Below, piece by piece: positions 4,383 to 56,057 of a stretch of DNA of 64,000 bases. How positions within the stretch are numbered: position 1 is the first letter of the stretch; every line of letters begins with the position of its first letter. This stretch comes from Sediminibacterium sp. (GTDB lineage: Bacteria > Bacteroidota > Bacteroidia > Chitinophagales > Chitinophagaceae): positions 62,001-126,000 of the forward strand of contig JAFWCB010000002.1 in the NCBI GenBank assembly GCA_017537025.1, given 5' to 3'. The notes below the pieces were generated by a model. The model worked only from the letters and a program-made list of their open reading frames with translations. It did not search any database and was not told the DNA's origin. The position numbers and the translations under genes are program-made.

Positions 4383-5294
4383 ATGACGCGAATCATATCG
4401 GTAGTTATCGTCTTTTTATTCGCTTGTAAAACAACATTTGTGCATACGAACAATAAGCAACCGGTATTCGATTATCAGGGACACCGGGGATGTAGGGGAT
4501 TGATGCCTGAAAATACAATACCAGCTATGCTTAAGGCAATAGATTTAGGCGTTACCACTTTGGAAACAGATATTGTGATAACAAAAGATAGAAAACCTAT
4601 TTTGAGTCATGAGCCTATCTTCAATCATGAAATCGCTACAAAACCTAATGGAGATCCGGTTACAGAGCAGGAAGAGCAATCCTTGAATATCTATCAAATG
4701 GATTATAATGTTGTAAGAACATACGATGTAGGATTAAAACCACATCCTCGTTTTGCACAGCAGCAAAAAATAGCAGTTTCTAAGCCCTTATTAGCTGATA
4801 TGATAGATGCCGCTGAAGCGTATGCCAGTAAGCAACAAAAAGCTTTGCCTCACTATAATATGGAAACAAAATCGGATCCTAAAACCGATAATACCCATCA
4901 TCCCTTACCGGCTGAATTTGTAGAATTGATTATGCAAGTAGTGCTTAATAAGAAAATTGAAAAAAGAACAACTATTCAATCTTTTGATCCCAGAACGCTT
5001 CAATACTTGCATAAGCACTATCCAAATATGCAAACCGCTTTGTTAATTGAAGACTTCGATAAGCGTTCTTTGGCGCAACAATTAAAAGAATTAGGATTTT
5101 CACCCACTATTTACAGTCCACATTATTCCTTAGTAACAACCGAACTTTTAGCGTTATGTAAGGCTCGGAAAATAAAGGTTATTCCCTGGACAGTAAACGA
5201 TTTACCTACCATGCAACGACTAAAAGATATGGGGGTAGATGGTTTGATTTCCGACTTTCCCAATTTGTATAAGGGGATAGGGAATAGGGAATAG
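4383..5294 (+). CDS. Glycerophosphodiester phosphodiesterase, lipoprotein
   Basis: This GDPD/GlpQ-family enzyme hydrolyses glycerophosphodiesters to glycerol-3-phosphate and an alcohol. The 303-residue precursor has a short signal ending FLFAC with a candidate lipid-anchored Cys15, so it is probably a periplasmic or outer-membrane lipoprotein. Catalytic and metal residues are visible: H34-R35-G, PEN at about 42-44, E61 and D63 in ETDIV, and H76. The C-terminal TIM-barrel end reads VIPWTVNDLPTMQRLKDMGVDGLISDFP. The final codons and the stop lie inside a heptamer array, so the tail KGIGNRE is repeat-encoded. Confidence 0.93.
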   Translation: MTRIISVVIVFLFACKTTFVHTNNKQPVFDYQGHRGCRGLMPENTIPAMLKAIDLGVTTLETDIVITKDRKPILSHEPIFNHEIATKPNGDPVTEQEEQSLNIYQMDYNVVRTYDVGLKPHPRFAQQQKIAVSKPLLADMIDAAEAYASKQQKALPHYNMETKSDPKTDNTHHPLPAEFVELIMQVVLNKKIEKRTTIQSFDPRTLQYLHKHYPNMQTALLIEDFDKRSLAQQLKELGFSPTIYSPHYSLVTTELLALCKARKIKVIPWTVNDLPTMQRLKDMGVDGLISDFPNLYKGIGNRE

Positions 5295-5301
5295 GGTATA
5301 G
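5274..5301 (+). repeat. Heptamer array, four units of GGNATAG type
   Basis: Four exact period-7 units run GGGATAG, GGAATAG, GGAATAG, GGTATAG. They cover the last codons and stop codon of the GDPD gene and continue 7 bp past it. This is one member of the dispersed period-7 family in this window. Confidence 0.85.
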
Positions 5302-5345
5302 TTTTTTTTCAAAATACTAAAACCGCGGATAATCGTTCTTCGTAA

Positions 5346-9475: not shown

Positions 9476-9479
9476 AAAC

Positions 9480-9542
9480 TTAGTGGGTAGTGGTTAGTGT
9501 ATAGTGGATGGTGTATAGTGAATAGTGTATAGTGGGTAGTGT
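9480..9542 (+). repeat. Heptamer array, nine AGTGNNT-type units, within an operon gap
   Basis: Nine consecutive period-7 units occupy exactly 63 bp, starting TTAGTGG and GTAGTGG; most fit ATAGTGN. The array begins 5 bp before the Gfo/Idh start and ends on the first base of the MFS stop codon. The same unit type occurs inside the helicase gene at 28538-28611. Confidence 0.85.
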
Positions 9543-10735
9543 TATGAAGTTGCTGTTCTTTTTTCTTTAAAGAATAATAAAAAATAAATGAGTACACCTG
9601 CGGCTATATAAGCTGGTACCATCCAAATGCTTTGCCAATTATGGGTAGTATCACTGATTTTTTTTGCATTTACGATATAGCCCGAAAAGCCGGTTCCTAT
9701 TACCATTCCCAAACCGTATGTAGCGAAGGTAAATAATCCTTGTGCAGCATTTTTGATTTTCTCACCTGCTTTTTTCTCAGTATACATATAACCTGTTACA
9801 AAGAAGAAATCATAACAAATACCGTGTAGAATAATTCCTGCGTAAAGCATCCAACTGCCACTTTCAACATTGCCATAGGCAAAACAGATATAGCGTAGTA
9901 TCCATGCACTCATACCAAATAACAACATATTTTTTACACCGATTCTATTGAATAAAAACGGAATAGCAAGAATGAAAACTGCTTCTGAAACCTGTCCGAG
10001 TGTCATTTTACTCGCTGCATTCGGGAAATTGATTTCATTCAAGAAGGGGTTGGCGAATCCATAGTAAAAAGAAAGAGGTATACATACTAGGATAGCCGCG
10101 ATAAAAAATATCAAATAAGGTTTGTCTTTGAACAATACAAATGCTTCGGTGCCCAGTGCCGAAGAGGCATCGGCCGATTTCCCTTTTGGAGGGGTGTTTG
10201 GTAAAACAAAACTGAATAAACCTAAGCCTACTGAAACAGCAGCAGCCAGATAAAATGTATTGGATGATTTTTCAATGCCTAATTGTCCAATAAGCACACC
10301 GGCTACTATCCATCCGATAGTGCCGAATACCCGTATCCAGGGGAATTGTTTACCGGGATCTGTCATTTGAGAAAATGCCACACTATTACTCAAAGCAATG
10401 GTAGGCATATATAGTAAAGAGTAAGCTAAAATTATCCAATAAAAGGTATTGCTATGTTCAATTTTTGTGGCGAGTAATAATAATCCTGCACCCAAAATAT
10501 GAAGCACACCCATAATTTTTTGTGCCGCAAAAAAACGATCGGCAATCAATCCCACAAAGAAGGGAGATATCATGGTGGCAATGGCTAATGCACCATAAGT
10601 CGCGCCAATTTGTACATCGGTTGCTTGCAAGGGGGCTTGGCCCATATAAGTGCCCATGGTAACATACCAGGCACTCCAAATAAAATACTGTAAAAACATC
10701 ATGACGCAGAGGGATACGCCAGTTGAACTTTTCAT
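9542..10735 (-). CDS. MFS transporter (nucleoside/sugar permease-like)
   Basis: This 397-residue inner-membrane carrier has 12 predicted hydrophobic segments. The N-terminus, MFLQYFIWSAWYVTMGTY, resembles the NupG/XapB-like nucleoside:H+ symporter group that Bacteroidota often pair with sugar or glycoside enzymes. A conserved cytoplasmic-loop region occurs near GLIADRFFAAQKIMG, after the second or third helix. I chose the ATG at 10735 (MKSSTG), because the longer frame adds 19 residues with no family support. It is probably the first gene of the GH1/Gfo-Idh module. A near-consensus TAAATTGG element lies 11 bp upstream. The substrate is unknown. Confidence 0.88.
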   Translation of the reverse strand: MKSSTGVSLCVMMFLQYFIWSAWYVTMGTYMGQAPLQATDVQIGATYGALAIATMISPFFVGLIADRFFAAQKIMGVLHILGAGLLLLATKIEHSNTFYWIILAYSLLYMPTIALSNSVAFSQMTDPGKQFPWIRVFGTIGWIVAGVLIGQLGIEKSSNTFYLAAAVSVGLGLFSFVLPNTPPKGKSADASSALGTEAFVLFKDKPYLIFFIAAILVCIPLSFYYGFANPFLNEINFPNAASKMTLGQVSEAVFILAIPFLFNRIGVKNMLLFGMSAWILRYICFAYGNVESGSWMLYAGIILHGICYDFFFVTGYMYTEKKAGEKIKNAAQGLFTFATYGLGMVIGTGFSGYIVNAKKISDTTHNWQSIWMVPAYIAAGVLIYFLLFFKEKRTATS

Positions 10736-15400: not shown

Positions 15401-16507
15401 GGCTAAGAAATCATTGATTTTTGTGGCTGCTTGTTTAGATGCATTGCCACCTGTTGTTAGCTTATTTTTCAATGCAGTATAATCCGCCTTTAACGTTTCT
15501 TGCTTGGCAGTATCGTATAATAAAATTGATAATGCTTTTTGCAGATTGCCCTCATTGAGTTCATCTTGAATAAGTTCTTCAACCACTAACTTATCCATAA
15601 TCAAGTTTACCAATGAAATATATTTAATCTTGATCAACCGTTTGGCAATTTGATAACTGATATTGCTCCCTTTATAGCATACTACTTCCGGTACACCAAA
15701 TAAGGCAGTTTCGAGCGTGGCTGTACCACTTGTTACTAAAGCTGCTTTAGCTGTTGATAAGAGTGCGTAAGTACTGTTTTTTACTGATCTTACATTGGTA
15801 TAGCCACTCAAAAAAGGGCTATAAAAAGAAGATTCTTGTCCGGGTGCCTCTGCCACTACAAATTGTTCATTCGGAAAATGCTTGGCAACAGAAAGCATGA
15901 TGGGTAGCTTCTTGCTGATCTCTTGTTTCCGTGATCCGGGGAGTAAGGCAATACATTTATTTTTACTATCTCCGGTCTCCGGTCTCCGGCCTATCGTCCA
16001 TTGACCAATAACTTCTATCAACGGGTGCCCAACATATTCCACTTCCCAATTCCAGTTGTTTTTAAAATATTCTTTTTCAAAAGGGAGAATACAAAGCATG
16101 AGATCGATGTACTGTTTCATTTTTTTTACCCGATTGGCTTTCCAGGCCCAAACTTGTGGAGCGATGTAGTATATCACTTTAAACCCTTGTTTTTTAGCCC
16201 ACTCTGCGATTCGTAAATTAAATCCCGGATAATCGATCAGGATGATAGCATCCGGTTGGTAAGCCAAAATATCTGCCTTGCACCATTTGATGTTTTGTAG
16301 GATGGTGGGCAGATTTTTTATCACTTCGGCGAAACCCATAAAAGCCAGGTCGCGATAGTGTTTTACCAAATCGCCACCGGCAGCTTGCATAAGATCGCCA
16401 CCCCAGCAGCGGAAACTGGCATTGGTATTCGTTTCTTTTAGGGCTTTGATCAAATTGCTGCCATGTAAATCGCCACTGGCTTCACCGGCTATGATATAAT
16501 ATTTCAT
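15386..16507 (-). CDS. lpxB: Lipid-A-disaccharide synthase
   Basis: LpxB is a peripheral inner-membrane GT19 glycosyltransferase that joins UDP-2,3-diacylglucosamine to lipid X in lipid A synthesis. The 373-residue protein starts MKYYIIAGEASGDLHGSNL. It has LIDYPGFNLRIAEWAKKQG, YYIAPQVWAWKANRVKKMK, IALLPGSRKQEI, and TSGTATLETALFGVPEVVCYK. Length fits the family. Between HPLIEVIGQW and the IALLPGSR strand there is a short, repeat-encoded insertion (IGRRPETGDS), described as a heptamer array. Confidence 0.96.
   Translation of the reverse strand: MKYYIIAGEASGDLHGSNLIKALKETNTNASFRCWGGDLMQAAGGDLVKHYRDLAFMGFAEVIKNLPTILQNIKWCKADILAYQPDAIILIDYPGFNLRIAEWAKKQGFKVIYYIAPQVWAWKANRVKKMKQYIDLMLCILPFEKEYFKNNWNWEVEYVGHPLIEVIGQWTIGRRPETGDSKNKCIALLPGSRKQEISKKLPIMLSVAKHFPNEQFVVAEAPGQESSFYSPFLSGYTNVRSVKNSTYALLSTAKAALVTSGTATLETALFGVPEVVCYKGSNISYQIAKRLIKIKYISLVNLIMDKLVVEELIQDELNEGNLQKALSILLYDTAKQETLKADYTALKNKLTTGGNASKQAATKINDFLALSTN
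15969..15989 (+). repeat. Heptamer array inside lpxB, three TCTCCGG units
   Basis: Three perfect 7-bp units occur in the lpxB coding region. They are GGAGACC on the gene strand, the same unit as the seven-copy array at 54759-54807. Looser period-7 sequence continues to about 16010. Confidence 0.8.
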
Positions 16508-17000: not shown

Positions 17001-20000
17001 ATGCTTACCACACTCTATTATTTTGCACAAGTTATTTTATGCAGTGGCATTATGATGGGCTATTATTGGTTGGTATTACGTGATAAAAAATTCCATCAGT
17101 ATAATCGCTTCTATTTATTGTTTGCGGCTGCCGTTGCTTGGATAATTCCATTGATCAAGATTCAGTGGGAACCACACCCAACAAGTAGGCTTCCAGTTTA
17201 TGAGCTATTCTATATGGTGGCTGAAAATAATAGTAGAATGGACAGCAATTTGCATCGAAATTGGTTTCAGTGGAATTGGCAAACCATGCTTACGGGGGTA
17301 TATGCGGTTGTATCTATCATTTTGTGTTTCATGCTCATTATTGGTATGATTCGTATTGCTCGAATACTCCGTAAACATCCTATCAATATTATCGATAATT
17401 TCTTTTTGATCATTACCAATGTACAAGGAACCCCTTTTTCTTTTTTCAAATATATTTTTTGGAATGAGCAAATAGATTTACAAAGTGAATCAGGCAAACA
17501 AATATTACAACACGAAATCACGCATGTACAACAAAAGCATTCAATAGATAAACTTTTTGTACAGCTTGTTTTAGTTGCCGGATGGTTTAATCCTTTTTTC
17601 TGGCTTATCAAAGGAGAGTTGAGTATGATCCATGAATATATCGCTGATAAAAAATCGGTTGAGCATGGAGATACTGCTTCATTAGCTGCTATGTTACTCA
17701 CTGCGGCTTATCCTCGGCACCCGTTCTTATTATCCAATCCGTTTTTCTTTTCACCTATTAAAAGAAGAATCGCTATGTTAACCAATCAAACAAAACCCAA
17801 GTACAGTTATTTGCGCAGGCTCATCATCTTACCAGTAATGGCCATCGTATTAGTACTATTTGCCTTTAGAAGTAAAGAAAGTCGTGTTAAGCAGCCCATT
17901 TCTTTGCAAGGAGTAATTGAAAACGTATACAATGAATTAAAGCCCGCTTCGAGCAATGCTAAATCGGCAACAGGTTTTCGAGTGATGCTTTTGAAAAAGA
18001 AATATCTGGTGGTGCTTGCACCCGCACATGGAGGCGCCGACGCGGGTGCAAAAGCACCCGATGGTACTAAAGAATCTGAGTTGGCATTGCGATATGCCAA
18101 ATTAATCAAAGAGTTGAATAATAATGATCATATTGAATTTGTTTTAAGCCGAACTGATGATAAATATATGCACGTGGTTGAGGTGACTGACTTTATCAAT
18201 AATCAAAATCCAGATTTAGCAATATCTATTCATGCTAATACCTCATTGAGTTCTTTAAAAGACATGAATGGATCAGGAGTATATTTAAGTAAAACCGGAA
18301 TCTCGTTCAATGAGAGTTATACGCTGGCTAATAATATTGCAACAAATCTTAAAGATGCTACTTTTAATTTTAATGGAATAAAAACACGCAATGATGGTGT
18401 TTATATTTTAAAAAACACAAAATGCCCAATAGTTGAAACAGAAATAGGCTATTTGTCGAGCACATCCGATCTTAAAAAATTAAAAGATCCGACCTATCAA
18501 AAAGCTTTGGCATCTGCTATTTTACAAGGGGTGCAGGATTATTTATATCGGAAGGAAAATACGTTAAGTGCTGTAAGGGATACCATCAAAAAGGGGGATT
18601 CCATCATCATAAATTCTGATGTAGGAAAAAGGGTTATAGTTGATGGGGAAAAGGGGGTAACAGATATTCTCTACTATAAAAATACGATGGGAGAAGAAAA
18701 GATAATGACTCGATATTCTCCTAAAAACCCTAAGTTGAATAATATGATTTACTTAGTGGATGGAGTTGAAAAGCCTTACTATCAGGTATTAAATTTAGAT
18801 ATTAATGACATAGCTGAGATACGAGTTTCAAAAGAGCCAAGCTTAATTTATAAATATGGCGACAGAGCAAAAAATGGAGTTATGCTTTTTACTAAAAAGA
18901 GATACCCCCAAGAAAAAGGTGTTCTTGATTTTCAATCTTCCTCTGAGTCATCTTTTTCATCCATTAAAAATAAGCCAGGAGCTGCGGGATCATTATTCAT
19001 TATAGATGGTGTTGTTTTAGGTAAAGACCAATTGCCTAATCTCAATCCAAACGAAATTGATAATATCCGTGTATTTAAAGGTATAGATGCAATTGATAGG
19101 TATGGGGCGCAAGCTGAGGGGGGTGCTGTTAGTATTATAACGAAAAAATTTTTAGCTGAGAAAGGGTTAACAAAAGGTGATTGGAAAGAATCACAACCAG
19201 GAGCTTTTAGAGCTATTCAAGGGTATAGCTTAGATGAAGTTAGAAGAATTGAAGCCTCCAAATCGAATAGTGACGATGAATATCTTCAAACAGTTAATAG
19301 AGCAACTGCGATAGTTTTAGATGGTCATATTATTAGTAAGGAAGTCGCTTCGAAACTTGATGTTAGAGATATCATGTCTATTGGTTTTGGGGATTTTCCT
19401 ATCGAGAAAGTAATGAAGCCTAATGTTTTGACGCTTCAAACTAAAAAAGGCATTCGCAATTCTTCATCCATGTATTCTGCAGATGAACTCCGAAAATTAG
19501 AAGAATTGGATGCGGAGTTGAAACTAAAAAATGATTCAACAACGTATGCGAAAAATTTTAATAAAAATTTTATTACTATAAATACAAATAATCCTCAAAC
19601 TAATTATCCGGTTACTAGAAAGGAGTTTCCATTAAGTGTTCGAACAGTACCAAAAGATAAATCAAAGCAAGAAGTTGAAGATGAGCAAAAAGCAGGTCGT
19701 AAGGAAGCTTATGATAAAGTATTTACAGAAACACAAGTACCTGCTAGTTTCCCTGGTGGTAAAGCTGCATGGTTAAAATATTTGGAAAGAAATCTTAACA
19801 TAGATTTGCCGGTTAAGAAAGGTGGACCTCCCGGTACATATACCGTTATAGTTCAGTTTACGGTACATGAGGATGGTTTTTTATCAAATATAAAGGCATT
19901 AAATAATCCCGGTTATGGAACGGCTGAGGAAGCAGTTAGAGTAATAACAAAAGGGCCTAAATGGGAGCCCGCACAGCAAAATGGAAAGAAAGTTGCATCA

Positions 20001-20042
20001 ATAGTTAAGCAGTCTATTACATTTGTAATTTCGGAAGAATAA
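17001..20042 (+). CDS. M56 (BlaR1-like) metallopeptidase fused to Amidase_3, plug-like repeats and TonB C-terminal domain
   Basis: This 1013-residue integral membrane protein is the partner of the BlaI-like repressor. Hydrophobic segments lie at about 3-24, 33-52, 94-116 and 270-288. The cytoplasmic zinc-protease motif HEITH is at 171-175, with the second-site HEYIADKKSVEHG downstream. Beyond the last helix comes an Amidase_3 domain (about 335-515) with H343 in PAHGG, E360 in the KESELAL segment, H411 in SIHAN and E481 in EIGYLS, so its zinc site looks complete. Three TonB-plug-like repeats follow (about 582-632, 663-717, 770-816), then a TonB C-terminal domain (about 930-1013). It probably senses envelope or peptidoglycan state; substrate and signal are inference. 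Confidence 0.85.
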   Translation: MLTTLYYFAQVILCSGIMMGYYWLVLRDKKFHQYNRFYLLFAAAVAWIIPLIKIQWEPHPTSRLPVYELFYMVAENNSRMDSNLHRNWFQWNWQTMLTGVYAVVSIILCFMLIIGMIRIARILRKHPINIIDNFFLIITNVQGTPFSFFKYIFWNEQIDLQSESGKQILQHEITHVQQKHSIDKLFVQLVLVAGWFNPFFWLIKGELSMIHEYIADKKSVEHGDTASLAAMLLTAAYPRHPFLLSNPFFFSPIKRRIAMLTNQTKPKYSYLRRLIILPVMAIVLVLFAFRSKESRVKQPISLQGVIENVYNELKPASSNAKSATGFRVMLLKKKYLVVLAPAHGGADAGAKAPDGTKESELALRYAKLIKELNNNDHIEFVLSRTDDKYMHVVEVTDFINNQNPDLAISIHANTSLSSLKDMNGSGVYLSKTGISFNESYTLANNIATNLKDATFNFNGIKTRNDGVYILKNTKCPIVETEIGYLSSTSDLKKLKDPTYQKALASAILQGVQDYLYRKENTLSAVRDTIKKGDSIIINSDVGKRVIVDGEKGVTDILYYKNTMGEEKIMTRYSPKNPKLNNMIYLVDGVEKPYYQVLNLDINDIAEIRVSKEPSLIYKYGDRAKNGVMLFTKKRYPQEKGVLDFQSSSESSFSSIKNKPGAAGSLFIIDGVVLGKDQLPNLNPNEIDNIRVFKGIDAIDRYGAQAEGGAVSIITKKFLAEKGLTKGDWKESQPGAFRAIQGYSLDEVRRIEASKSNSDDEYLQTVNRATAIVLDGHIISKEVASKLDVRDIMSIGFGDFPIEKVMKPNVLTLQTKKGIRNSSSMYSADELRKLEELDAELKLKNDSTTYAKNFNKNFITINTNNPQTNYPVTRKEFPLSVRTVPKDKSKQEVEDEQKAGRKEAYDKVFTETQVPASFPGGKAAWLKYLERNLNIDLPVKKGGPPGTYTVIVQFTVHEDGFLSNIKALNNPGYGTAEEAVRVITKGPKWEPAQQNGKKVASIVKQSITFVISEE

Positions 20043-25967: not shown

Positions 25968-26627
25968 TCAGGCTTTTATTACATGCTGATCGGTAATCAT
26001 AAATACGGTATCTGTTTTCTTGGGCCTCATCATTTTTAATCCACTAAACTTGCTAAAAGCAGGTAAAATACATTTCTGTTGATCAAAGAAAAAACAGGGG
26101 AAAGTTAACGACTGTCGAACACCATTTCGCATAACGATTCCGGGATGCACATGCCCACAAAAATAATACTGCTCATCATCTTCTATGCAGGATGGATCAT
26201 GTACAAAACTGAATGTATCTATGGTATGTATGCCTTCTACTATACGAATCCCAGCCTCTTCATACCAACTATCTTTTAATATATCATGATTACCACGAAC
26301 TAATGTGATAGGAAGATGATTGATATCTTTCCGCCATCTGATAAATAAATCCAACTCTTTATTGGAACTGCTATGAAAAAAATCTCCAATTACTAAAATC
26401 TCTGCTGGCTTAAATTGATTGTACTGATCAAAGAATCTTTGCAAATCTTCCTTATATACATTTTGAGGTACTACAATTCCATTTTTTCTGAAATGACCTG
26501 TTTTGCCAAAATGTGTATCTGATACTATCAACGTTTTTTTATTCTCCCAATACAATACCCTGGCTGCAGATAGCCAAATTTGTTGACCCCTAATGGTATG
26601 TAGAATAGGTGCTTGCATGGGAGGCAA
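25968..26627 (-). CDS. pdeM: Ligase-associated metallophosphoesterase (PdeM/Pe)
   Basis: This is the phosphoesterase of the four-gene Lhr-Exo-Lig-Pe DNA-repair cassette. The 219-residue protein has calcineurin-like motifs: D37 and H39 in SDTHFGK, D82 in GDFFHS, N113-H114 in RGNHD, and GHVHPG (H159, H161). It begins 14 bp after the helicase stop and is followed by the deacetylase gene after 2 bp. The cassette is described in Pseudomonas and others; the function in this organism is inferred from that. Confidence 0.92.
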   Translation of the reverse strand: MPPMQAPILHTIRGQQIWLSAARVLYWENKKTLIVSDTHFGKTGHFRKNGIVVPQNVYKEDLQRFFDQYNQFKPAEILVIGDFFHSSSNKELDLFIRWRKDINHLPITLVRGNHDILKDSWYEEAGIRIVEGIHTIDTFSFVHDPSCIEDDEQYYFCGHVHPGIVMRNGVRQSLTFPCFFFDQQKCILPAFSKFSGLKMMRPKKTDTVFMITDQHVIKA

Positions 26628-26641
26628 AGATAATTGCCTGC

Positions 26642-28414
26642 TTATACATTTGCTAATTGCTGTTGCATTTTTTGAATACGATCTTCTAATTTTTCTGTCG
26701 ATAAATTATTTCTATTTAACCCATCTACAATAATAGGGAAAGAGAGGGGTGTAAGTTTTTCGGGAAACTGAATAACAATCTTACTCTTAGCAATACGCAG
26801 CAAAGCCTGCCGAAGCCTTGCTTCTTCCATTTGTTGAAGCAACACTTCATTATATGCTTGTCGTAATAAAATATTATTGGGATCATATTCTTCGAAAACT
26901 TTGAAGAGTAAAGAAGCAGAAGATTGCAAATGACGTGCTTTTTTTTGCTCCCCGGGAAAACCCTGAAATATCAATCCGCCAATAACGGCAATATCCCTGA
27001 ATTTACGCTTGGCCATCTCACTTTTATTAATACTACGTTGAATGTCTATTAATAAATTGTCTTCACTGAACAAATTATATACATTCGTATCATCTACCGG
27101 AATAGGCTGGTCGCTTAATAATTCGAAACCATAATCGTTCATGGAAATCGAGAAACTGATAGGTGTTATTTGTCCAATTCTATAAGCAAGAATAGCACTA
27201 AGTGCTTCATGTACTTGCCGGCCTTCAAAAGGGTATACCAATAAATGATATCCATCTTTTTCAACAATCTGTTCTATTAATAATTCCTGTGGTTGTGGAA
27301 TATGAGATAATTGTTGTTGTAATAAAAATAAGGGCTCTAAACTCGCTAATTCATAACCCACATTTGGGCTAAGGGCTTTGCTGAATGTTTCTCTTAATAC
27401 TTCACCCAAATTTGCGGTTAAACTCATTCTACCACCCATCCACGAGGGTACGATCGATTTTTTGGCAGTCGACTTTTTAACCAACACCGTCATTTCCTTG
27501 ATCATCACTAATTCTAAATTCCTGCCGGCTAATGTAAATACATCTCCCGGCTCTAGCCGGCTGATAAAATATTCTTCAATTACACCTACATAGCCACCGC
27601 TCATAAATTTTACTTTCAACATAGCATCACTCACAATGGTACCAATATGCATACGGTGACGCATAGCTATTTTTCGGCTTTTTATTTTGTAAACTCCCTC
27701 TTCGATTTCTATTTTTTTATACTCATCATATTGCGCTAAAGCATTACCTCCATTTACTACATGTTGCAATAATTCCTGCCATTCGGTTTCATGCATATCT
27801 GCAAAGCAGTATGTACTTTTTACTTGCTTCCATAATTCTTGAGGAATAAAACCATCACCTATGGCAAGGGTACACATAAATTGTAATAGTACGTCATAGC
27901 ATAACAATAAAGGGTCCTTACTTTCAATATTTTTTTGAGCTATGGCATCTTTTAAAGCAGCAGCTTCTACAATTTCTAAACTATGTGTTGGTAGAAAATA
28001 AATTTTACTTGTTTCTCCGGGTCTATGTCCACTACGACCTGCTCGCTGTAAAAAACGGGCAACACCTTTTGGGGAACCTACTTGAATTACCGTATCAACC
28101 GGACGAAAATCTACGCCTAGGTCTAGACTGGCAGTACAAACAACAGCTTTTAATTTTTCGGTATGCAAGGCATCTTCTACCCAAAGGCGTAGTTCCTGTT
28201 CAATACTGCCATGATGCAAAGCGATGGCACCGGCTAGTTGTGGGGCAATAGTTAATAGGGTTTGATACCATGTTTCACTCATGCCTCTTGTATTGATAAA
28301 AATCAAAGTCGTTTTACTTTGTTCAATAATCGGCACGAGCATATGGGCAAGCTTTATACCTAAGTGGCCTGCCCAAGGGTATTTCTCAATCTCTTCCGGT
28401 ATAATCGTATACAC
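26642..28414 (-). CDS. Lhr-type ligase-associated DEXH helicase, C-terminal fragment (frameshifted)
   Basis: This 590-residue frame carries the second RecA domain and C-terminal domains: TRGMSETWY, CTASLDLGVDF (motif V region), and QRAGRSGHRPGE (motif VI, about 123-134), then the winged-helix and beta-barrel regions of Lhr-Core. The homologous sequence in this frame continues upstream of the first ATG (QIWGISATIGN, motif III) to about 28532. There the frame changes relative to the N-terminal part. Whole gene span: 26642-29157, about 835 residues if joined. As sequenced, the product is split. Confidence 0.85.
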   Translation of the reverse strand: MYTIIPEEIEKYPWAGHLGIKLAHMLVPIIEQSKTTLIFINTRGMSETWYQTLLTIAPQLAGAIALHHGSIEQELRLWVEDALHTEKLKAVVCTASLDLGVDFRPVDTVIQVGSPKGVARFLQRAGRSGHRPGETSKIYFLPTHSLEIVEAAALKDAIAQKNIESKDPLLLCYDVLLQFMCTLAIGDGFIPQELWKQVKSTYCFADMHETEWQELLQHVVNGGNALAQYDEYKKIEIEEGVYKIKSRKIAMRHRMHIGTIVSDAMLKVKFMSGGYVGVIEEYFISRLEPGDVFTLAGRNLELVMIKEMTVLVKKSTAKKSIVPSWMGGRMSLTANLGEVLRETFSKALSPNVGYELASLEPLFLLQQQLSHIPQPQELLIEQIVEKDGYHLLVYPFEGRQVHEALSAILAYRIGQITPISFSISMNDYGFELLSDQPIPVDDTNVYNLFSEDNLLIDIQRSINKSEMAKRKFRDIAVIGGLIFQGFPGEQKKARHLQSSASLLFKVFEEYDPNNILLRQAYNEVLLQQMEEARLRQALLRIAKSKIVIQFPEKLTPLSFPIIVDGLNRNNLSTEKLEDRIQKMQQQLANV

Positions 28415-28503
28415 TTCTATTGGCTTATCTATTTGCGCAGTAATGATCTTACCTTTTTGTTGTAGGGGAGATAATAATACTTCTTTAGCTTCTTCTAAAT
28501 TTC

Positions 28504-29157
28504 CTATGGTGGCACTGATGCCCCAAATCTGCGGAGGGGATAGTGGATAGTGGATAGTGGATAGTAGAGTTCTTTTCCTGACTGCTCACTATGCACTAAA
28601 CACTTTGCACTAACTATATGTGCTATAGCAAGCTCCACCTGCACACCCCGTTTGCCTCCTATGAGTTCATGCCACTCATCAACAGCAATGATTTTTAGTG
28701 TTTCAAAAATGGTAGCATGATTTTTTTGTGTTAACAGTAGATGCAAGCTTTCAGGAGTGATGATTAATACTTCTGGCATTTGCTTTTTTTGCTTTTGCCT
28801 GTCTGCATTACTTGTATCTCCATTTCTTATGCCTACTTTCCACTGCATTCCTAATGCATCGATTACTTCTTCCATGGCTCTGCCAATATCTTTAGCTAAT
28901 GCGCGCAAAGGCGTTATCCATAAGAGTTGTAAGCCATTATTTTTAGCTGTTTTATAATTGGTGGGGTTTGCTTCAATGAATTGCATTAAAGACCCTAAAA
29001 AAACTGAATAGGTTTTTCCACAACCGGTGGGGGCATTTACTAAGCCGCTACCTCCTTCTATTATAGCTTTCCATGCTTGCTCTTGAAAAGCAAATGGGTG
29101 CATGTTATGATCCCTGAGCCATTGGGTGATGATGGTATGTCCTACATGTTTTGTCAT
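28504..29157 (-). CDS. Lhr-type ligase-associated DEXH helicase, N-terminal fragment (frameshifted)
   Basis: This 217-residue frame has the Q-motif region (FAFQEQAWKAI), Walker A NAPTGCGKT (about 41-49), WITPLRALAKD, ITPESLHLLLT and the DEXH box DEWH (160-163). Residues about 182-209 are encoded by a heptamer dyad. Downstream of it the frame goes to RRFGASVPP and stops, while the true motif III (ISATIGN) is in another frame. Two or five repeat copies would rejoin the frames. It overlaps the ligase stop codon by 4 bp. Confidence 0.85.
   Translation of the reverse strand: MTKHVGHTIITQWLRDHNMHPFAFQEQAWKAIIEGGSGLVNAPTGCGKTYSVFLGSLMQFIEANPTNYKTAKNNGLQLLWITPLRALAKDIGRAMEEVIDALGMQWKVGIRNGDTSNADRQKQKKQMPEVLIITPESLHLLLTQKNHATIFETLKIIAVDEWHELIGGKRGVQVELAIAHIVSAKCLVHSEQSGKELYYPLSTIHYPLRRFGASVPP
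28538..28611 (+). repeat. Inverted heptamer dyad interrupting the Lhr-type helicase
   Basis: Four perfect GGATAGT units (28538-28565) are followed by an 11-bp spacer. Then come five units in the opposite orientation (28577-28611), starting CCTGACT and then four units ending CACT (revcomp AGTGNNN). Total length is 74 bp, which is 2 mod 3, consistent with the frameshift. All three frames of the GGATAGT array are stop-free on the gene strand. Confidence 0.85.
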
Positions 29158-30767
29158 TTACCGTAAAGAGCAAGTAATTTTTTTAGATCGGCAATCGTAT
29201 TTATATCATCAACAGTTTTATCTTTTCGCCATCTCAAAATTCTGGGAAATCGAAGTGCCACGCCACTTTTATGTCTGTTAGAAGCGGCAATACCTTCAAA
29301 GGCAATCTCAAAGACCAATTCAGGCTTTACCGTTCTTACAGGACCAAATTTTTCAACAGCATTCTTTTTTACAAAATCATCTACCTGTAAAAACTCCTTA
29401 TCTGTTAAACCGGAATATGCTTTGGTAAAGGAAACTAATTTGTCGCCATCTTTAACTGCAAAGGTATAGTCGGTGTATAAATTACTTCTTCTGCCATGCC
29501 CCTTCTGTGCGTAAATCATAACTGCATCTATAGTAAGCGGGTCAATTTTCCATTTCCACCAGTCGCCCGTTTTTCTACCCACCTGATATATTGAATTTCT
29601 TCTTTTCAGCATGAGCCCCTCTGCGAACATACTTCGCGAATCATTTCTTATGCTAGTGAGTTCTTCCCATGAATTTGCGCTTATTGGTTTTGATAGCAAA
29701 AGTTGATGGGGAAGGTTGGCATTATCAACGATAGTTGAAAGTATATCAACTCTTTTTTCTAAGGGCCAATCCCGAATATCTTGATCTTGCCATTCTAAGA
29801 GATCGTATGCAAAAAAAGCTATGGGAACTTCTTCTAGTTGTTTTTTTGAAATATTTTTTCTTCCTATTCTTGTTTGTAAAAGTGCGAAGGGGAGGGGTTG
29901 ACCATTTTTTGCAGGTATAATTTCGCCATCTAAAACAATGCCATCGGGTAATTTATTTTTGAGAGAAGCGTATTCCGGAAATTTATCGGTCATTAATTCT
30001 TCGCCTCTACTCCATACATAAATCTCTCCATTTCTTTTGATAAGTTGTCCGCGTATGCCATCCCATTTCCATTCGGCTTGCCATTCTTCTATGGCACCTA
30101 AATTTTGTGGTGCTTCTTCCAAAGCATGCGCCAAGTAAAAAGGATATGGTTTTGAAAAATCTTTTTCCTGAGGATCATTACTTAAAAGTGCTTCAAAAGA
30201 AGTAGTGGCAGGATCCCATTTACCACTGATGCGCAAGGCAATGATAGAGGGATCTAGTTGCACGGATGTTGCTAATGCATTTACCATCATTTTTTGTGAG
30301 ATACCAATTCTGAATCCGCCGGTTATTAATTTATTGAATGTGAATAGAGCATCTTTATGGAGCTGCTGCCATTGGGTAATTACAAAAAGGCGTTTTGTTT
30401 CTTCTGATTCTTTCTCCAGTTTTTGAAGTGCTTCAATATAATAGCTGAGGTTATGGGTATCGGTACTGTGGGTATTGCCCGGTAACAGGAGTGCAATGGT
30501 TTCTGCTAAGTCGCCTACCGTATGATAACATTCTGCTAATAGCCAATCTGGTAAAGCGGTTTGGGCAGCGCACCATATTTGTAATGTTGTTGAGCTAACA
30601 ATACGCCGCGGCCTTCGGCCGCTAAATAGTGCAATCACCCATACCCTGTCGGGCATGGGCGCTTGAGAAAAATAATTACTTAATGTAAACAGTTTATCAT
30701 TCGTTTTAGTACTACTGTCAAGCTCATTAATGAGATGCGCAAATAATTCTAATCCCGATTTGCTCAT
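29154..30767 (-). CDS. ATP-dependent DNA ligase of the Lhr-Exo-Lig-Pe cassette
   Basis: This 537-residue ATP-dependent ligase has an N-terminal DNA-binding domain (about 1-200). The adenylation motif I is EWKWDGIRG with nucleophile K234, followed by DGEII, FFAYDLLEW, EGLMLKRR (motif IV region) and WWKWKIDPLTIDAVMIYAQKGHGRR (motif V and oligonucleotide-binding domain start). Such ligases are linked to resistance to crosslinking damage. It overlaps the exonuclease stop by 4 bp and the helicase start by 4 bp. Confidence 0.93.
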   Translation of the reverse strand: MSKSGLELFAHLINELDSSTKTNDKLFTLSNYFSQAPMPDRVWVIALFSGRRPRRIVSSTTLQIWCAAQTALPDWLLAECYHTVGDLAETIALLLPGNTHSTDTHNLSYYIEALQKLEKESEETKRLFVITQWQQLHKDALFTFNKLITGGFRIGISQKMMVNALATSVQLDPSIIALRISGKWDPATTSFEALLSNDPQEKDFSKPYPFYLAHALEEAPQNLGAIEEWQAEWKWDGIRGQLIKRNGEIYVWSRGEELMTDKFPEYASLKNKLPDGIVLDGEIIPAKNGQPLPFALLQTRIGRKNISKKQLEEVPIAFFAYDLLEWQDQDIRDWPLEKRVDILSTIVDNANLPHQLLLSKPISANSWEELTSIRNDSRSMFAEGLMLKRRNSIYQVGRKTGDWWKWKIDPLTIDAVMIYAQKGHGRRSNLYTDYTFAVKDGDKLVSFTKAYSGLTDKEFLQVDDFVKKNAVEKFGPVRTVKPELVFEIAFEGIAASNRHKSGVALRFPRILRWRKDKTVDDINTIADLKKLLALYGK

Positions 30768-31768
30768 GGTATATCCTCCTTCTCAACTTCCTCTTCTCCA
30801 TAAGCTGTTTTTACTTCTGCTGCTTCTATCCCTTTATCACTTAAATACCTACTTAGCACCGATTGAAAACCATGCGTTACAAAAACCTTCTGTGCCCCTG
30901 TTGCTTCAATAGCCGATAATAAACCGTTCCAATCGGCATGATCACTCAATACAAAACCGGCATCGGCATTGTTTCTTCTTTTATTCCCACGAACCTGCAT
31001 CCACCCGCTGCAAACACCCACTGCATAAGGATTAAAACGCTTGAGCCAAGGCGACCCATCTGCTCCGGGAGGTGCTATCACTACCGCATTTTTTAACTCG
31101 GCTTTAGTGGTTTCGGGAGTAACTCTTTTCACTTCCGGTAAATCAATACCTGCGGCTTTAAGTGCTTGATGGGTATTCCAAATAGCGCCATGTACCCAAA
31201 TAGTATCAGTAACTGATTGAACGGCTTGAAGTATCCGCTGTGCTTTCCCTAAACTGTAGGCAATCAAAACACTCGCTATATGCTGTTGTTTATTGCGCAG
31301 AATCCAATTGGTAATCTGCTCAAAAATGATGGATTGCGACTCCCACTGATAAATAGGTAACCCAAATGTAGATTCGGTGATAAAAGTATTACAACGAACA
31401 GGTTCAAAAATATGACTGATGCCATCATCCACTGTTTTATAATCACCACTTACTACCCACACATCACCTTTATGTTCTATGCGTATTTGAGAAGAACCGA
31501 TAATATGACCTGCAGGATGCAAACTTATTTTTACTCCATTCCTATAAACAGCTTCATTCCAAGCAACAGCTTCATAGCTATTATTCCCTAAACGAAGTTG
31601 CAATAATGGCTTTGTTAAATCGTGACATAAATAAGCCCCAGAGCCGTAGCGGGCATGATCACTGTGTGCATGCGTGATTACAGCATACGGTACCGGTCTC
31701 CAGGGATCAATATAAAAATCACCCGCACTGCAGTATAAACCTTTATCTGTGAATTCAATCAGTGGCAT
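30764..31768 (-). CDS. Ligase-associated metallo-beta-lactamase-fold exonuclease
   Basis: This is the Exo component of the cassette, a 3' exonuclease of the MBL/beta-CASP type. The 334-residue protein has HAHSDH (33-38) as motif II, HPAGHIIGSSQI, VVSGDYKT, and the C-terminal beta-CASP segments DFVLSDHADWNGLL-like (VLSDHADW) and KVFVTHG. It is the first cassette gene and lies 14 bp after the DUF2256 gene. Confidence 0.92.
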   Translation of the reverse strand: MPLIEFTDKGLYCSAGDFYIDPWRPVPYAVITHAHSDHARYGSGAYLCHDLTKPLLQLRLGNNSYEAVAWNEAVYRNGVKISLHPAGHIIGSSQIRIEHKGDVWVVSGDYKTVDDGISHIFEPVRCNTFITESTFGLPIYQWESQSIIFEQITNWILRNKQQHIASVLIAYSLGKAQRILQAVQSVTDTIWVHGAIWNTHQALKAAGIDLPEVKRVTPETTKAELKNAVVIAPPGADGSPWLKRFNPYAVGVCSGWMQVRGNKRRNNADAGFVLSDHADWNGLLSAIEATGAQKVFVTHGFQSVLSRYLSDKGIEAAEVKTAYGEEEVEKEDIP

Positions 31769-41349: not shown

Positions 41350-42516
41350 TTGAAATACGCTTCACAATATCTTCAATCAGCCGTAACAATCATTGAAAGT
41401 TATAATGGTGATATACCATTGGCTACTTTCTTAAAGAACTTTTTTTCTGCCAATAAAAAATTTGGCTCAAAAGATCGTAAGTATATAGCTCAATTGTGCT
41501 TTGCTTATTTTCGTTTAGGTCATGCAGCAAAAGAGATGCCTGTAGCGGATGCTATAAAAAAGCAACTTTTGCTCTCGAATCAAGGAAGCGACTGGCAAGC
41601 ATTATTTGATGATAGTTCAATACCAGAAGTTAGCCTTGATACTGTTTTCCCCTTTAGTAACGAACTGAGTAATGGAATAGATAAAGAAGCTTTTATTACG
41701 AATCACTTTATCCAGCCGGATGTTTTTTTACGCATAAGACCGGGTAGGGAAGAAAAAATGATGAATGCACTACAACAAGCAGGTATTGGCTTTCATGCCA
41801 TGAGTACAAATACCCTCGCTGTTTCTGCCGGCACTAAGCTAGATGGTGTAGCTCAAGTAAATAAAGATTATGTTATACAGGATTATAGCTCACAGCAAGT
41901 TGGTGAGTTACTAAAAAAGGTTAAAGGTGAAAGGTTAAAGAATGAAGCCGAAATTGTACCTTCTAGCTTACACCCTTCCCCTTCCACCTCCATCTGGGAT
42001 TGCTGCGCCGCGAGTGGAGGCAAATCGATTCTGGCTAAAGATATATTGGGCAACGTAGATATAACAGTTTCAGATATTCGGGAAAGTATTTTGCAGAACT
42101 TACAGAAACGTTTTAAAGAGGCCGGAATTTTTAATTATAAGTCTATAATCTGTGATCTTAGTAAAAAAACAGATCCCAGATTTCAGATTGAAAATTACGA
42201 TTTGGTCATCTGCGATGCCCCTTGTAGCGGCAGTGGCACTTGGGCAAGAACACCAGAGCAATTATATTTTTTTAAAAAAGAGAGGATAGCAGCGTTTCAA
42301 AAACTGCAACAACAGATCATCTTAAATACTATAAATACTGTAAAACCGGGTGGTTTTTATTTGTATATCACTTGCTCTGCTTTCAAAAAAGAAAATGAAG
42401 AGCAAACTAATTTTATTCAGGCTAATAGCGCGTTACGGTTAGTTGAGCAACAAATAATAAATGGGTACACAGTACATGCAGACACTATGTTTGCTGCGCT
42501 ATTTAAAAATAGTTAA
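41350..42516 (+). CDS. RsmB/NOP-type RNA (cytosine-5) methyltransferase
   Basis: These SAM-dependent enzymes make m5C in rRNA or tRNA. The 388-residue protein has the SAM-binding segment DCCAASGGKS, then DIRESIL, and ICDAPCSGSGTW with the releasing Cys. ITCSAFKKENEEQT carries the catalytic Cys. The start is a TTG directly abutting the odhB stop; no upstream ATG exists and the next is far inside. A heptamer dyad inserts about 25 residues (KKVKGERLKN to PSPSTS) just before the SAM-binding motif. Confidence 0.82.
   Translation: MKYASQYLQSAVTIIESYNGDIPLATFLKNFFSANKKFGSKDRKYIAQLCFAYFRLGHAAKEMPVADAIKKQLLLSNQGSDWQALFDDSSIPEVSLDTVFPFSNELSNGIDKEAFITNHFIQPDVFLRIRPGREEKMMNALQQAGIGFHAMSTNTLAVSAGTKLDGVAQVNKDYVIQDYSSQQVGELLKKVKGERLKNEAEIVPSSLHPSPSTSIWDCCAASGGKSILAKDILGNVDITVSDIRESILQNLQKRFKEAGIFNYKSIICDLSKKTDPRFQIENYDLVICDAPCSGSGTWARTPEQLYFFKKERIAAFQKLQQQIILNTINTVKPGGFYLYITCSAFKKENEEQTNFIQANSALRLVEQQIINGYTVHADTMFAALFKNS
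41918..41988 (+). repeat. Inverted heptamer dyad inside the RsmB-like gene
   Basis: Three units AGGTTAA, AGGTGAA, AGGTTAA (41918-41938) and a 15-bp spacer precede five oppositely oriented units (41954-41988: TTGTACC, TTCTAGC, TTACACC, CTTCCCC, TTCCACC). This has the same two-array layout as the helicase insert. Confidence 0.75.
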
Positions 42517-54305: not shown

Positions 54306-54752
54306 TTATATGCTTCCGGATTTTTTATATGGCGGAATAGTGGTTACTGATTGGATTGTGCCATTTACTACTTTACCACAAAAAGTTTCATCTCCATTGG
54401 TCACAACAATATACTCGGCTCCAATTACAGATTGATATTGAAATACCTGTGTAATGACCGTATCATTCAATTTTGTTTGCTGCTCCTTACATTCTATGAT
54501 CATCCAAGGGGTATCATTTTTATAAACGAGTATATCAAATCGCTTTTGTAACTCACCTATACGTATTTGCTTTTCTATGGCAATAAGTTTAGCAGGATAG
54601 TATAATACTTCAACCAAATAATTTACAAAATGCTGGCGAACCCATTCTTCCGGTGTTAACCGAACCCATTGCTTTCTCAATGGATCAAAAATATATTCCT
54701 TTCCATTTTCTTCTTTTACACGAGGGTTATATGGAGGGAAGGAGAGGAGCAT
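54306..54752 (-). CDS. HsdR N-terminal domain protein (PD-(D/E)XK nuclease-like)
   Basis: This 148-residue protein matches the stand-alone type I restriction HsdR_N domain family. The PD-(D/E)XK-type core is visible in RFDILVYKN and IIECKEQ (Asp, then E-x-K). It lacks helicase and specificity domains, and no hsdM or hsdS gene is present, so a restriction role is doubtful. The start ATG lies 6 bp from a (GGAGACC)7 array, placing that array in its leader or promoter. Confidence 0.8.
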   Translation of the reverse strand: MLLSFPPYNPRVKEENGKEYIFDPLRKQWVRLTPEEWVRQHFVNYLVEVLYYPAKLIAIEKQIRIGELQKRFDILVYKNDTPWMIIECKEQQTKLNDTVITQVFQYQSVIGAEYIVVTNGDETFCGKVVNGTIQSVTTIPPYKKSGSI

Positions 54753-54758
54753 GTGGGG

Positions 54759-54808
<50 letters not shown>

Positions 54809-54863
54809 TGAAAAGATTTTTTTAAAGAGTAAAAATACGTAATCAAAAAATCTGGTGTACAAA

Positions 54864-55242: not shown

Positions 55243-55251
55243 TAACTTTAT

Positions 55252-55286
55252 CTATTGTCTATAACCTATAACCTATAACCTAAATC
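55252..55286 (+). repeat. Heptamer array ending at the amn start codon
   Basis: Five period-7 units run CTATTGT, CTATAAC, CTATAAC, CTATAAC, CTAAATC, and end directly before the GTG start. In the reverse direction the unit is AGGTTAT. It lies where a ribosome would bind. Confidence 0.85.
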
Positions 55287-56057
55287 GTGAAAACTAAAAC
55301 AGAAATAGTAAACAATTGGTTGCCTCGCTATACCGGTGAGAAACTAGAGAATTTTGGTAAATTTATCTTGTTAACCAACTTCGGTAACTATGTAACCATG
55401 TTTGCCAAATGGCATAAAGTTAAAGTTGTTGGTACGGATAGGCCAATGCAATGCGCTACTGCCAACGGCATTACGATTATCAATTTTGGAATGGGTAGTC
55501 CGGGTGCCGCTACTATTATGGATTTATTAACTGCTATAGAACCCGAAGCTGTATTGTTTCTGGGTAAGTGTGGAGGGCTGAAGAGAAGAAATAAATTAGG
55601 TGATTTAATACTGCCGATCGCTGCCATACGAGGAGAAGGTACATCCAATGATTATTTCCCACCCGAAGTGCCTGCTATGCCAGCATTCGCACTTCAAAAA
55701 GCCATTTCAACTACAATCAGGGATTATAAAGTAGATTACTGGACAGGTACCGTATACACTACTAACCGAAGGGTTTGGGAACACGATGATGCTTTTAAAG
55801 AGTATCTTACCAAAGTAAGGGCCTATGCCATTGATATGGAAACAGCAACTATTTTCACTGTTGGTTTCTATAATAAAATTCCAACCGGGGCTTTATTATT
55901 GGTTAGTGATCAACCCATGATTCCCGATGGGGTTAAAACTGAAGCCAGTGATAAGAAGATTACGGAACAATATGTTGAGAAGCACTTGAAAATTGGTATC
56001 GACTCTCTAAAACAATTGATAAATAAAGGACAAACCGTTCGCCACCTACGCTTCTAA
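55287..56057 (+). CDS. amn: AMP nucleosidase
   Basis: The enzyme hydrolyses AMP to adenine and ribose-5-phosphate. The 256-residue, short form has the nucleosidase core: INFGMGSPGAATIMDLL, LFLGKCGGLKRR, RGEGTSNDYFP and the active-site Glu/Asp region AIDMETATIFTVG, with LLLVSDQP near the C-terminus. The start is a GTG, with no better ATG upstream; the heptamer array abuts it. It converges on ccmB with a 4-bp overlap. Confidence 0.9.
   Translation: MKTKTEIVNNWLPRYTGEKLENFGKFILLTNFGNYVTMFAKWHKVKVVGTDRPMQCATANGITIINFGMGSPGAATIMDLLTAIEPEAVLFLGKCGGLKRRNKLGDLILPIAAIRGEGTSNDYFPPEVPAMPAFALQKAISTTIRDYKVDYWTGTVYTTNRRVWEHDDAFKEYLTKVRAYAIDMETATIFTVGFYNKIPTGALLLVSDQPMIPDGVKTEASDKKITEQYVEKHLKIGIDSLKQLINKGQTVRHLRF

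Follow-up and report, generated by a model that had tools for sequence, protein, structure and literature searches.

In neuO, the copy number of a heptanucleotide repeat within the gene sets the reading frame, and 42 of 64 genomes were reported as OFF (PMC13001214), while in hmw1A a phase-variable heptanucleotide repeat is located in the promoter (PMC8262952). Xanthomonas (GGGAATC) and Nostoc (GGGGA(T/C)T) have been reported to carry dispersed heptameric repeats (PMC4692102), as have Beggiatoaceae and some Bacteroidetes (TAACTGA; PMC4679880). In addition, the Rickettsia palindromic elements (RPEs) are dispersed repeats that lie in frame within unrelated genes and are readable as extra residues (PMC10969869).

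The helicase locus described here shares features with each of these systems. With neuO and hmw1A it has the 7-nucleotide (nt) tandem repeat in common (PMC13001214, PMC8262952). As reported for the heptamers of Xanthomonas, Nostoc, and Beggiatoaceae, those of the genome under study are 7-nt tandem units, mostly intergenic, whose number varies between close relatives (PMC4692102, PMC4679880), and an arrangement in inverted pairs, sometimes seen in Xanthomonas, is a further shared trait (PMC4692102). However, these reports deal with one unit type and stress an intergenic location (PMC4692102, PMC4679880), whereas here we observe many unit types, with arrays that recur in frame within a particular loop of a single gene family. 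Like RPEs, the helicase heptamers are dispersed short repeats located in frame inside genes. RPEs form families whose members are about 150 bp long and encode a conserved peptide (PMC10969869). No such family is present in the helicase loops: the unit is 7 nt long, units and peptides differ between genomes (for units, even two relatives that are 95% identical differ at one site), and the same loop has been filled repeatedly. Judged by title and the start of the abstract, none of the open-access matches listed described heptamer arrays in the loop of this helicase family (TIGR04121), subscription papers lying outside this coverage.

The window, i.e., the entire 64,000-nt stretch of Sediminibacterium sp. 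DNA analyzed (contig JAFWCB010000002.1, positions 62,001 to 126,000; genome G000), holds all four members of the repair cassette represented by TIGR04120 to TIGR04123 (ligase, DEXH helicase, exonuclease, and PdeM). On the minus strand, the ATP-dependent DNA ligase (29154..30767; TIGR04120 and NF006701 over cut-off), the ligase-associated exonuclease (30764..31768; TIGR04122 over cut-off), and the ligase-associated phosphoesterase PdeM (25968..26627; TIGR04123 over cut-off) are intact. The fourth member is a TIGR04121 helicase (Lhr-Core, ligase-associated) that is split at 28526-28617. In profile, domain order, and gene neighbors it is the same as the described Lhr-Core/ligase-associated DEXH helicase (PMC8301817), and it differs from other TIGR04121 helicases in being broken by an array.

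The N-part of the helicase, an open reading frame (ORF) with motifs I and II (28504..29157, minus strand; TIGR04121 profile and Pfam DEAD), passes in its frame through the heptamer array and reaches a stop codon just beyond. The C-part lies in another frame and, counted from its first possible start codon, spans 26642..28414 (minus strand; TIGR04121, WH_Lhr, DEAD_assoc, and Helicase_C). Its open frame extends back over motif III (ISATIGN, at about 28500-28525) without a start codon, and upstream of motif III this frame contains no ATG, GTG, or TTG, from which we infer that the gene as assembled would yield no working helicase. The ORFs of the N- and C-part cover positions 2-171 and 218-803 of the TIGR04121 profile, and the corresponding open frames cover 2-170 and 176-803. 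Because the gene is split, both halves fall short of the 850 cut-off (228.1 bits and 795.5 bits), and the copy in G000 has no single open frame that scores at least 850; the intact protein of the closest relative, locus L031, scores 1057.9 bits. The description of this helicase as split and otherwise intact, originally made from the sequence alone, is borne out; a second break, searched with the profile over both ORFs and open frames, was not found.

The two frames part in the loop between the helix that follows motif II and motif III (28526..28617, minus strand), a position at which alignment to the Lhr structure 5v9x shows no long insert. As assembled, the loop is 92 nt long, i.e., 2 mod 3, and the arithmetic put forward earlier, by which adding one unit or removing two would restore the frame, holds. 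The GGATAGT unit, which reads ACTATCC on the gene strand, occurs in four perfect copies at 28538..28565 of the plus strand (4.0 copies, 100% matches; Tandem Repeats Finder), placing the array where the frames part, as had been noted before. The copies are faced by a degenerate arm of the dyad (CACTATGCACTAAACACTTTGCACTAA, 28587..28613, plus strand), which is 76% complementary over 28587-28611. The array is thus a tandem repeat in which a change of unit number alters the frame, as expected of a contingency locus. That no frame of the array contains a stop is correct for the GGATAGT block and incorrect for the other arm, which has stops in two of its three frames. With regard to hairpin potential, evaluated as folding against codon shuffles, the loop reaches a z of -2.95 in the window and -3.5 in the related locus L032, and 6 of 26 heptamer loops fall below -2. 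Heptamer loops as a group fold no differently from other long loops (p 0.90), so that the dyad is not a general feature and the reading as a general hairpin element was rejected.

Comparison to the two nearest helicases gives an indication of how the break arose. L031 shares 95% nucleotide identity with the window helicase in the C-part, and L032 shares 96% protein and 84% nucleotide identity; in the helicase tree, the window copy and L031 are sisters (support 89, not starred), with L032 next (100). The loop of L032 holds the orthologous TAGTG element in frame, which is 7 nt longer than that of the window and aligns with a single 7-nt gap, so that the whole-unit change suggested earlier is plausible. 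L031, at the same place and also in frame, carries a different element composed of AAGNNNN and CTTNNNN heptamers. Between two genes that are 95% identical outside the loop, an unrelated heptamer family has taken the place of the element's arms and the site is still occupied; given the order of the tree, this is most simply explained by an exchange in L031. Two further AAG-type arrays are present on the contig of the L031 gene. The genome that holds L032 (G041) contains no TAGTGNA array by pattern search, though the L032 loop itself has a degenerate one, and the short L032 contig may be misplaced in this bin.

Both halves of the window gene look selected, with a dN/dS against L031 of 0.044 in the C-part and 0.107 in the N-part. 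With L032 as reference, the C-part has accumulated 41.0 nonsynonymous differences in the window and 41.0 in L031, i.e., no relaxed selection is seen downstream of the break in this comparison, which implies that the frame loss is recent or intermittent, or else an error in the unit count. In the last case the assembly would be wrong and the gene would be in frame in living cells, a reading that agrees with the unrelaxed downstream half, with the in-frame state of all other readable loops, and with the draft status of the genome (29 contigs). However, the perfect part of the array is 28 bp and would, with short-read sequencing, fit inside a single read. Moreover, of the 27 ORFs that reach 120 amino acids (aa) or more in the stretch syntenic with a relative, G040, 23 are intact in one frame, the helicase being among the other four, and thus the assembly does not look indel-rich. 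We regard an assembly error, which the sequence-only reading had named as the main alternative, as possible but quite unlikely, the leading alternative to a switch being a plain recent frameshift. The low dN/dS of both halves would also be expected if the split gene were still in use, either as two polypeptides or through a frameshift of the ribosome at the array. Motif III would nevertheless be missing from a C-part with a start of its own, and the readable relatives require no shift; inspection of the array, by eye only, made no slippery site evident, and we consider such use very improbable.

The same loop, which varies in length among homologues, was compared across Chitinophagaceae at 147 helicase loci, a sample that gives no estimate of prevalence because 30 of the 60 loci in its second set were picked for split or short profile matches. 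The loop is in frame at 143 loci, cut by contig ends at 3, and broken at 1, the window's own. Within the first set of 87 loci, it lies in one open frame in 85, while contig ends truncate L065 (in frame in its visible part) and L084; within the second set, which shares some genomes with the first, 57 loci are in frame, L202 carries a variant motif and keeps the frame, L265 is the window's copy, and L270 is cut. The search required an in-frame loop, and a broken one would therefore appear as not found; the search returned no loop at five loci, namely, L065, L084, L202, L265, and L270. From the initial relatives, the helicase loci L002-L006, L008, and L009 were used; L001 is the window, and L007 (which starts past the loop) and L010-L030 (weak matches, other helicases) were left out of the loop counts.

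Chitinophagaceae helicase loops often hold unrelated heptamer arrays that leave the frame open. Among 134 distinct loops (window included), 44 are at least 60 nt long, and 26 of these reach 14/21 identity at lag 7, compared to an expectation of 0.44 from codon shuffling (maximum of 2 in 300 shuffles); at each lag from 2 to 15 other than 7 and 14, this holds for 0 to 1 long loops. Units recognized by eye include GTCAATG (L074), AAGCTGC (L067, Parafilimonas terrae), GCAACAG (L072), GGAATTA (L082), and CTGTCAA (L060). Consequently, the expectation that homologues would lack the insert was not confirmed, as the site is often filled there by other sequences. On a FastTree phylogeny of 131 helicase C-parts, the heptamer label must be gained or lost 19 times, with a minimum of 12 changes over starred branches, versus an average of 24.0 for shuffled labels on the same tree, so that the label is somewhat clustered. 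These sequence comparisons suggest that the loop between the motif II helix and motif III tolerates extra residues and is a recurrent host of unrelated heptamer arrays. Some loop units match a family of the host genome itself: AAGCTGN has 7 hits in G046 and none in any of the other 11 genomes; for GTCAATN there are 135 hits in G049 and 1 to 35 in the other 11 (overlapping hits instead of sites, with the helicase loop itself included for G046 and G049). GCAACAN is not commonest in the genome that bears it in the loop (1 hit in G048, 4 in G049, and 1 in G047).

Split TIGR04121 matches could be taken as a sign of many broken helicases, and this was rejected upon re-examination of 38 genomes plus G000 (17 others with split or short matches were left out). 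In 32 of the 39, the parts are joined in one frame, and in 23 of these the gap coincides with the loop; the remaining seven are G000, G076 (frame break), G194 (stops), and G172, G196, G280, and G313, which were read as contig ends. In two family members the helicase is thus broken away from the loop, by stops in G194 and by a frame break past motif III in G076 (L268), showing that loss of this gene by ordinary mutation occurs.

Heptamer arrays are not confined to the helicase. Self-similarity segments in the window number 7 at lag 7, 4 at lag 14, and 2 at lag 21, against 0-1 at each of lags 2-6 and 8-13; the period of 7, with its multiples, is the only one enriched. A 78.6-kb contig of G040 likewise shows 6 segments at lag 7 versus 0-1 at 8 other lags tested. 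Outside long ORFs, the plus strand of the window carries arrays of the GGGAATA type (5265..5311), the TAGTGNA type (9478..9546; 14 nt shorter in G040), and the CCTATAA type (55244..55299), as well as seven perfect GGAGACC units (54748..54818; Tandem Repeats Finder). The latter form the longest perfect array of the window among the Tandem Repeats Finder matches listed. GGAGACC units also occur, on the gene strand, in the open frame of a 373-aa lpxB gene (15955..16007, minus strand; TIGR00215 over cut-off). An array of the AAAGGTK type lies in the open frame of a 388-aa RsmB-like methyltransferase gene (41913..41950, plus strand), which RsmB-type models match under their cut-offs, and directly precedes its WDCCAASGGK stretch.

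For the TAGTGNA type, a pattern search of G000 returned 48 matches that merge into 24 distinct sites, with 1 match for the reversed-pattern control; this is a 7-nt tandem unit present at many sites, above chance. Flanks were available for 18 sites (17 of the 24 plus one more), of which two are in genes, namely, the helicase and MnmH, and the other 16 have no open frame spanning at least 150 nt on both sides. Unit number varies between close relatives: when eight orthologous arrays of G000 and G040 were compared (the flank-only pairs L133 and L146 being dropped), four differed by 14, 14, 7, and 7 nt, three were equal, and one differed by 13 nt. The in-gene arrays of G000 that leave the frame open are two in MnmH, one in lpxB, and one in the RsmB-like gene. 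Out of 46 distinct TAGTG-type arrays with at least four units, 3 have an open forward frame, and precisely these 3 lie in genes, an apparent stop avoidance that is partly circular since an array must be open to count as in-gene. MnmH (tRNA 2-selenouridine synthase; L153, G000:C25:78257-79369) contains two TAGTG heptamer arrays within its open frame. None of the other 20 homologues in the alignment has the insert that contains the second array; a longer loop is seen in one of them, with no period of 7.

The sequence-only reading had proposed a contingency locus, in which heptamer slippage would reversibly switch the repair helicase on and off, as in neuO. This would fit four perfect units and a length that is no multiple of 3 in an otherwise intact, selected gene, as well as the arrays found 7 or 14 nt apart between close relatives at 4 of 8 sites, and a heptanucleotide switch in coding sequence has its precedent in neuO (PMC13001214). 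However, a switch of that kind should leave many relatives OFF, and in these different species, with one genome each, not one of the other 25 heptamer loops has lost the frame, so that ON and OFF are not both common. The neuO genomes, on the other hand, were reported as mostly OFF (42 of 64) and with mostly long arrays, ranging from 3 to 53 units with 20 the commonest (PMC13001214), and hmw1A constructs with 13 to 24 units have been described (PMC8262952). The window copy has only four perfect units and is the sole loop-OFF copy among the examined loci. With 143 of 147 loci in frame, the proposal does not find support; a contingency locus appears unlikely here, and so, to judge from the loops compared, does reversible switching.

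The frame of the window helicase is broken at the array while both gene halves look selected. We favor, with a probability of roughly 70%, a dispersed coding heptamer repeat in a tolerant loop, with the window representing a recent accidental loss of frame and no maintained switch. The array is one copy of a class of heptamer repeats dispersed over many sites in these genomes, seated in a loop that tolerates extra residues and is probably translated in the relatives. A change in unit number, by slippage or by unequal recombination between identical units, would then have recently shifted the frame and turned the helicase off in the window genome. Such a loss may be an accident of a 7-nt repeat in a 3-nt frame that selection normally purges. 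A more far-reaching, rather doubtful possibility is that the heptamer arrays are self-spreading without a transposase of their own and that the loop is a recurrent docking site where arrays of one family are replaced wholesale by those of another. Turnover might run via break repair where the Lhr-ligase cassette acts, making a gene of the cassette itself a hot target.

Under the favored reading of a dispersed repeat with accidental frame loss, a tempting phase-variation call on the window helicase is corrected. A 7-nt repeat lives in the 3-nt frame of a DNA repair enzyme, repeatedly and with unrelated units, and one site offers a natural series of empty, in-frame, swapped, and broken states. 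This series makes it possible to test both the spread and turnover of heptamer repeats without a known transposase and the frequency of frame loss in repeat-bearing genes.

Within 135 helicase ORFs, 29 lag-7 segments are located in the loop and 13 elsewhere, seven other lags giving 0 to 2 in all. Of the 13 non-loop segments, 11 are concentrated 408-463 residues past the loop, where the region bounded by LGxxLRxTF and ELxxLxPLF forms a second variable stretch. Period-7 arrays in this second stretch were observed in L264, L267, L271, L273, L277, L213, L072, L055, and L257, and similar heptamer types, as seen by eye, are present in both loops of L264 and L072. Palindrome-like inserts (GTCATCCTGAGC, GTCATCCCGA, and CCCCTCTCC types) were also found in frame, in the helicase loop of L248, L255, and L273 and just after motif III in L065. 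The loop inserts of L255 and L273 are without period 7, and that of L248 lies beside its heptamers; the palindrome-like inserts of the loop that lack period 7 are presumably dispersed families as well. Finally, elsewhere in the window, positions 17001-20039 match the 840-aa ORF of a relative (L187) in two pieces, with extra window DNA between them.
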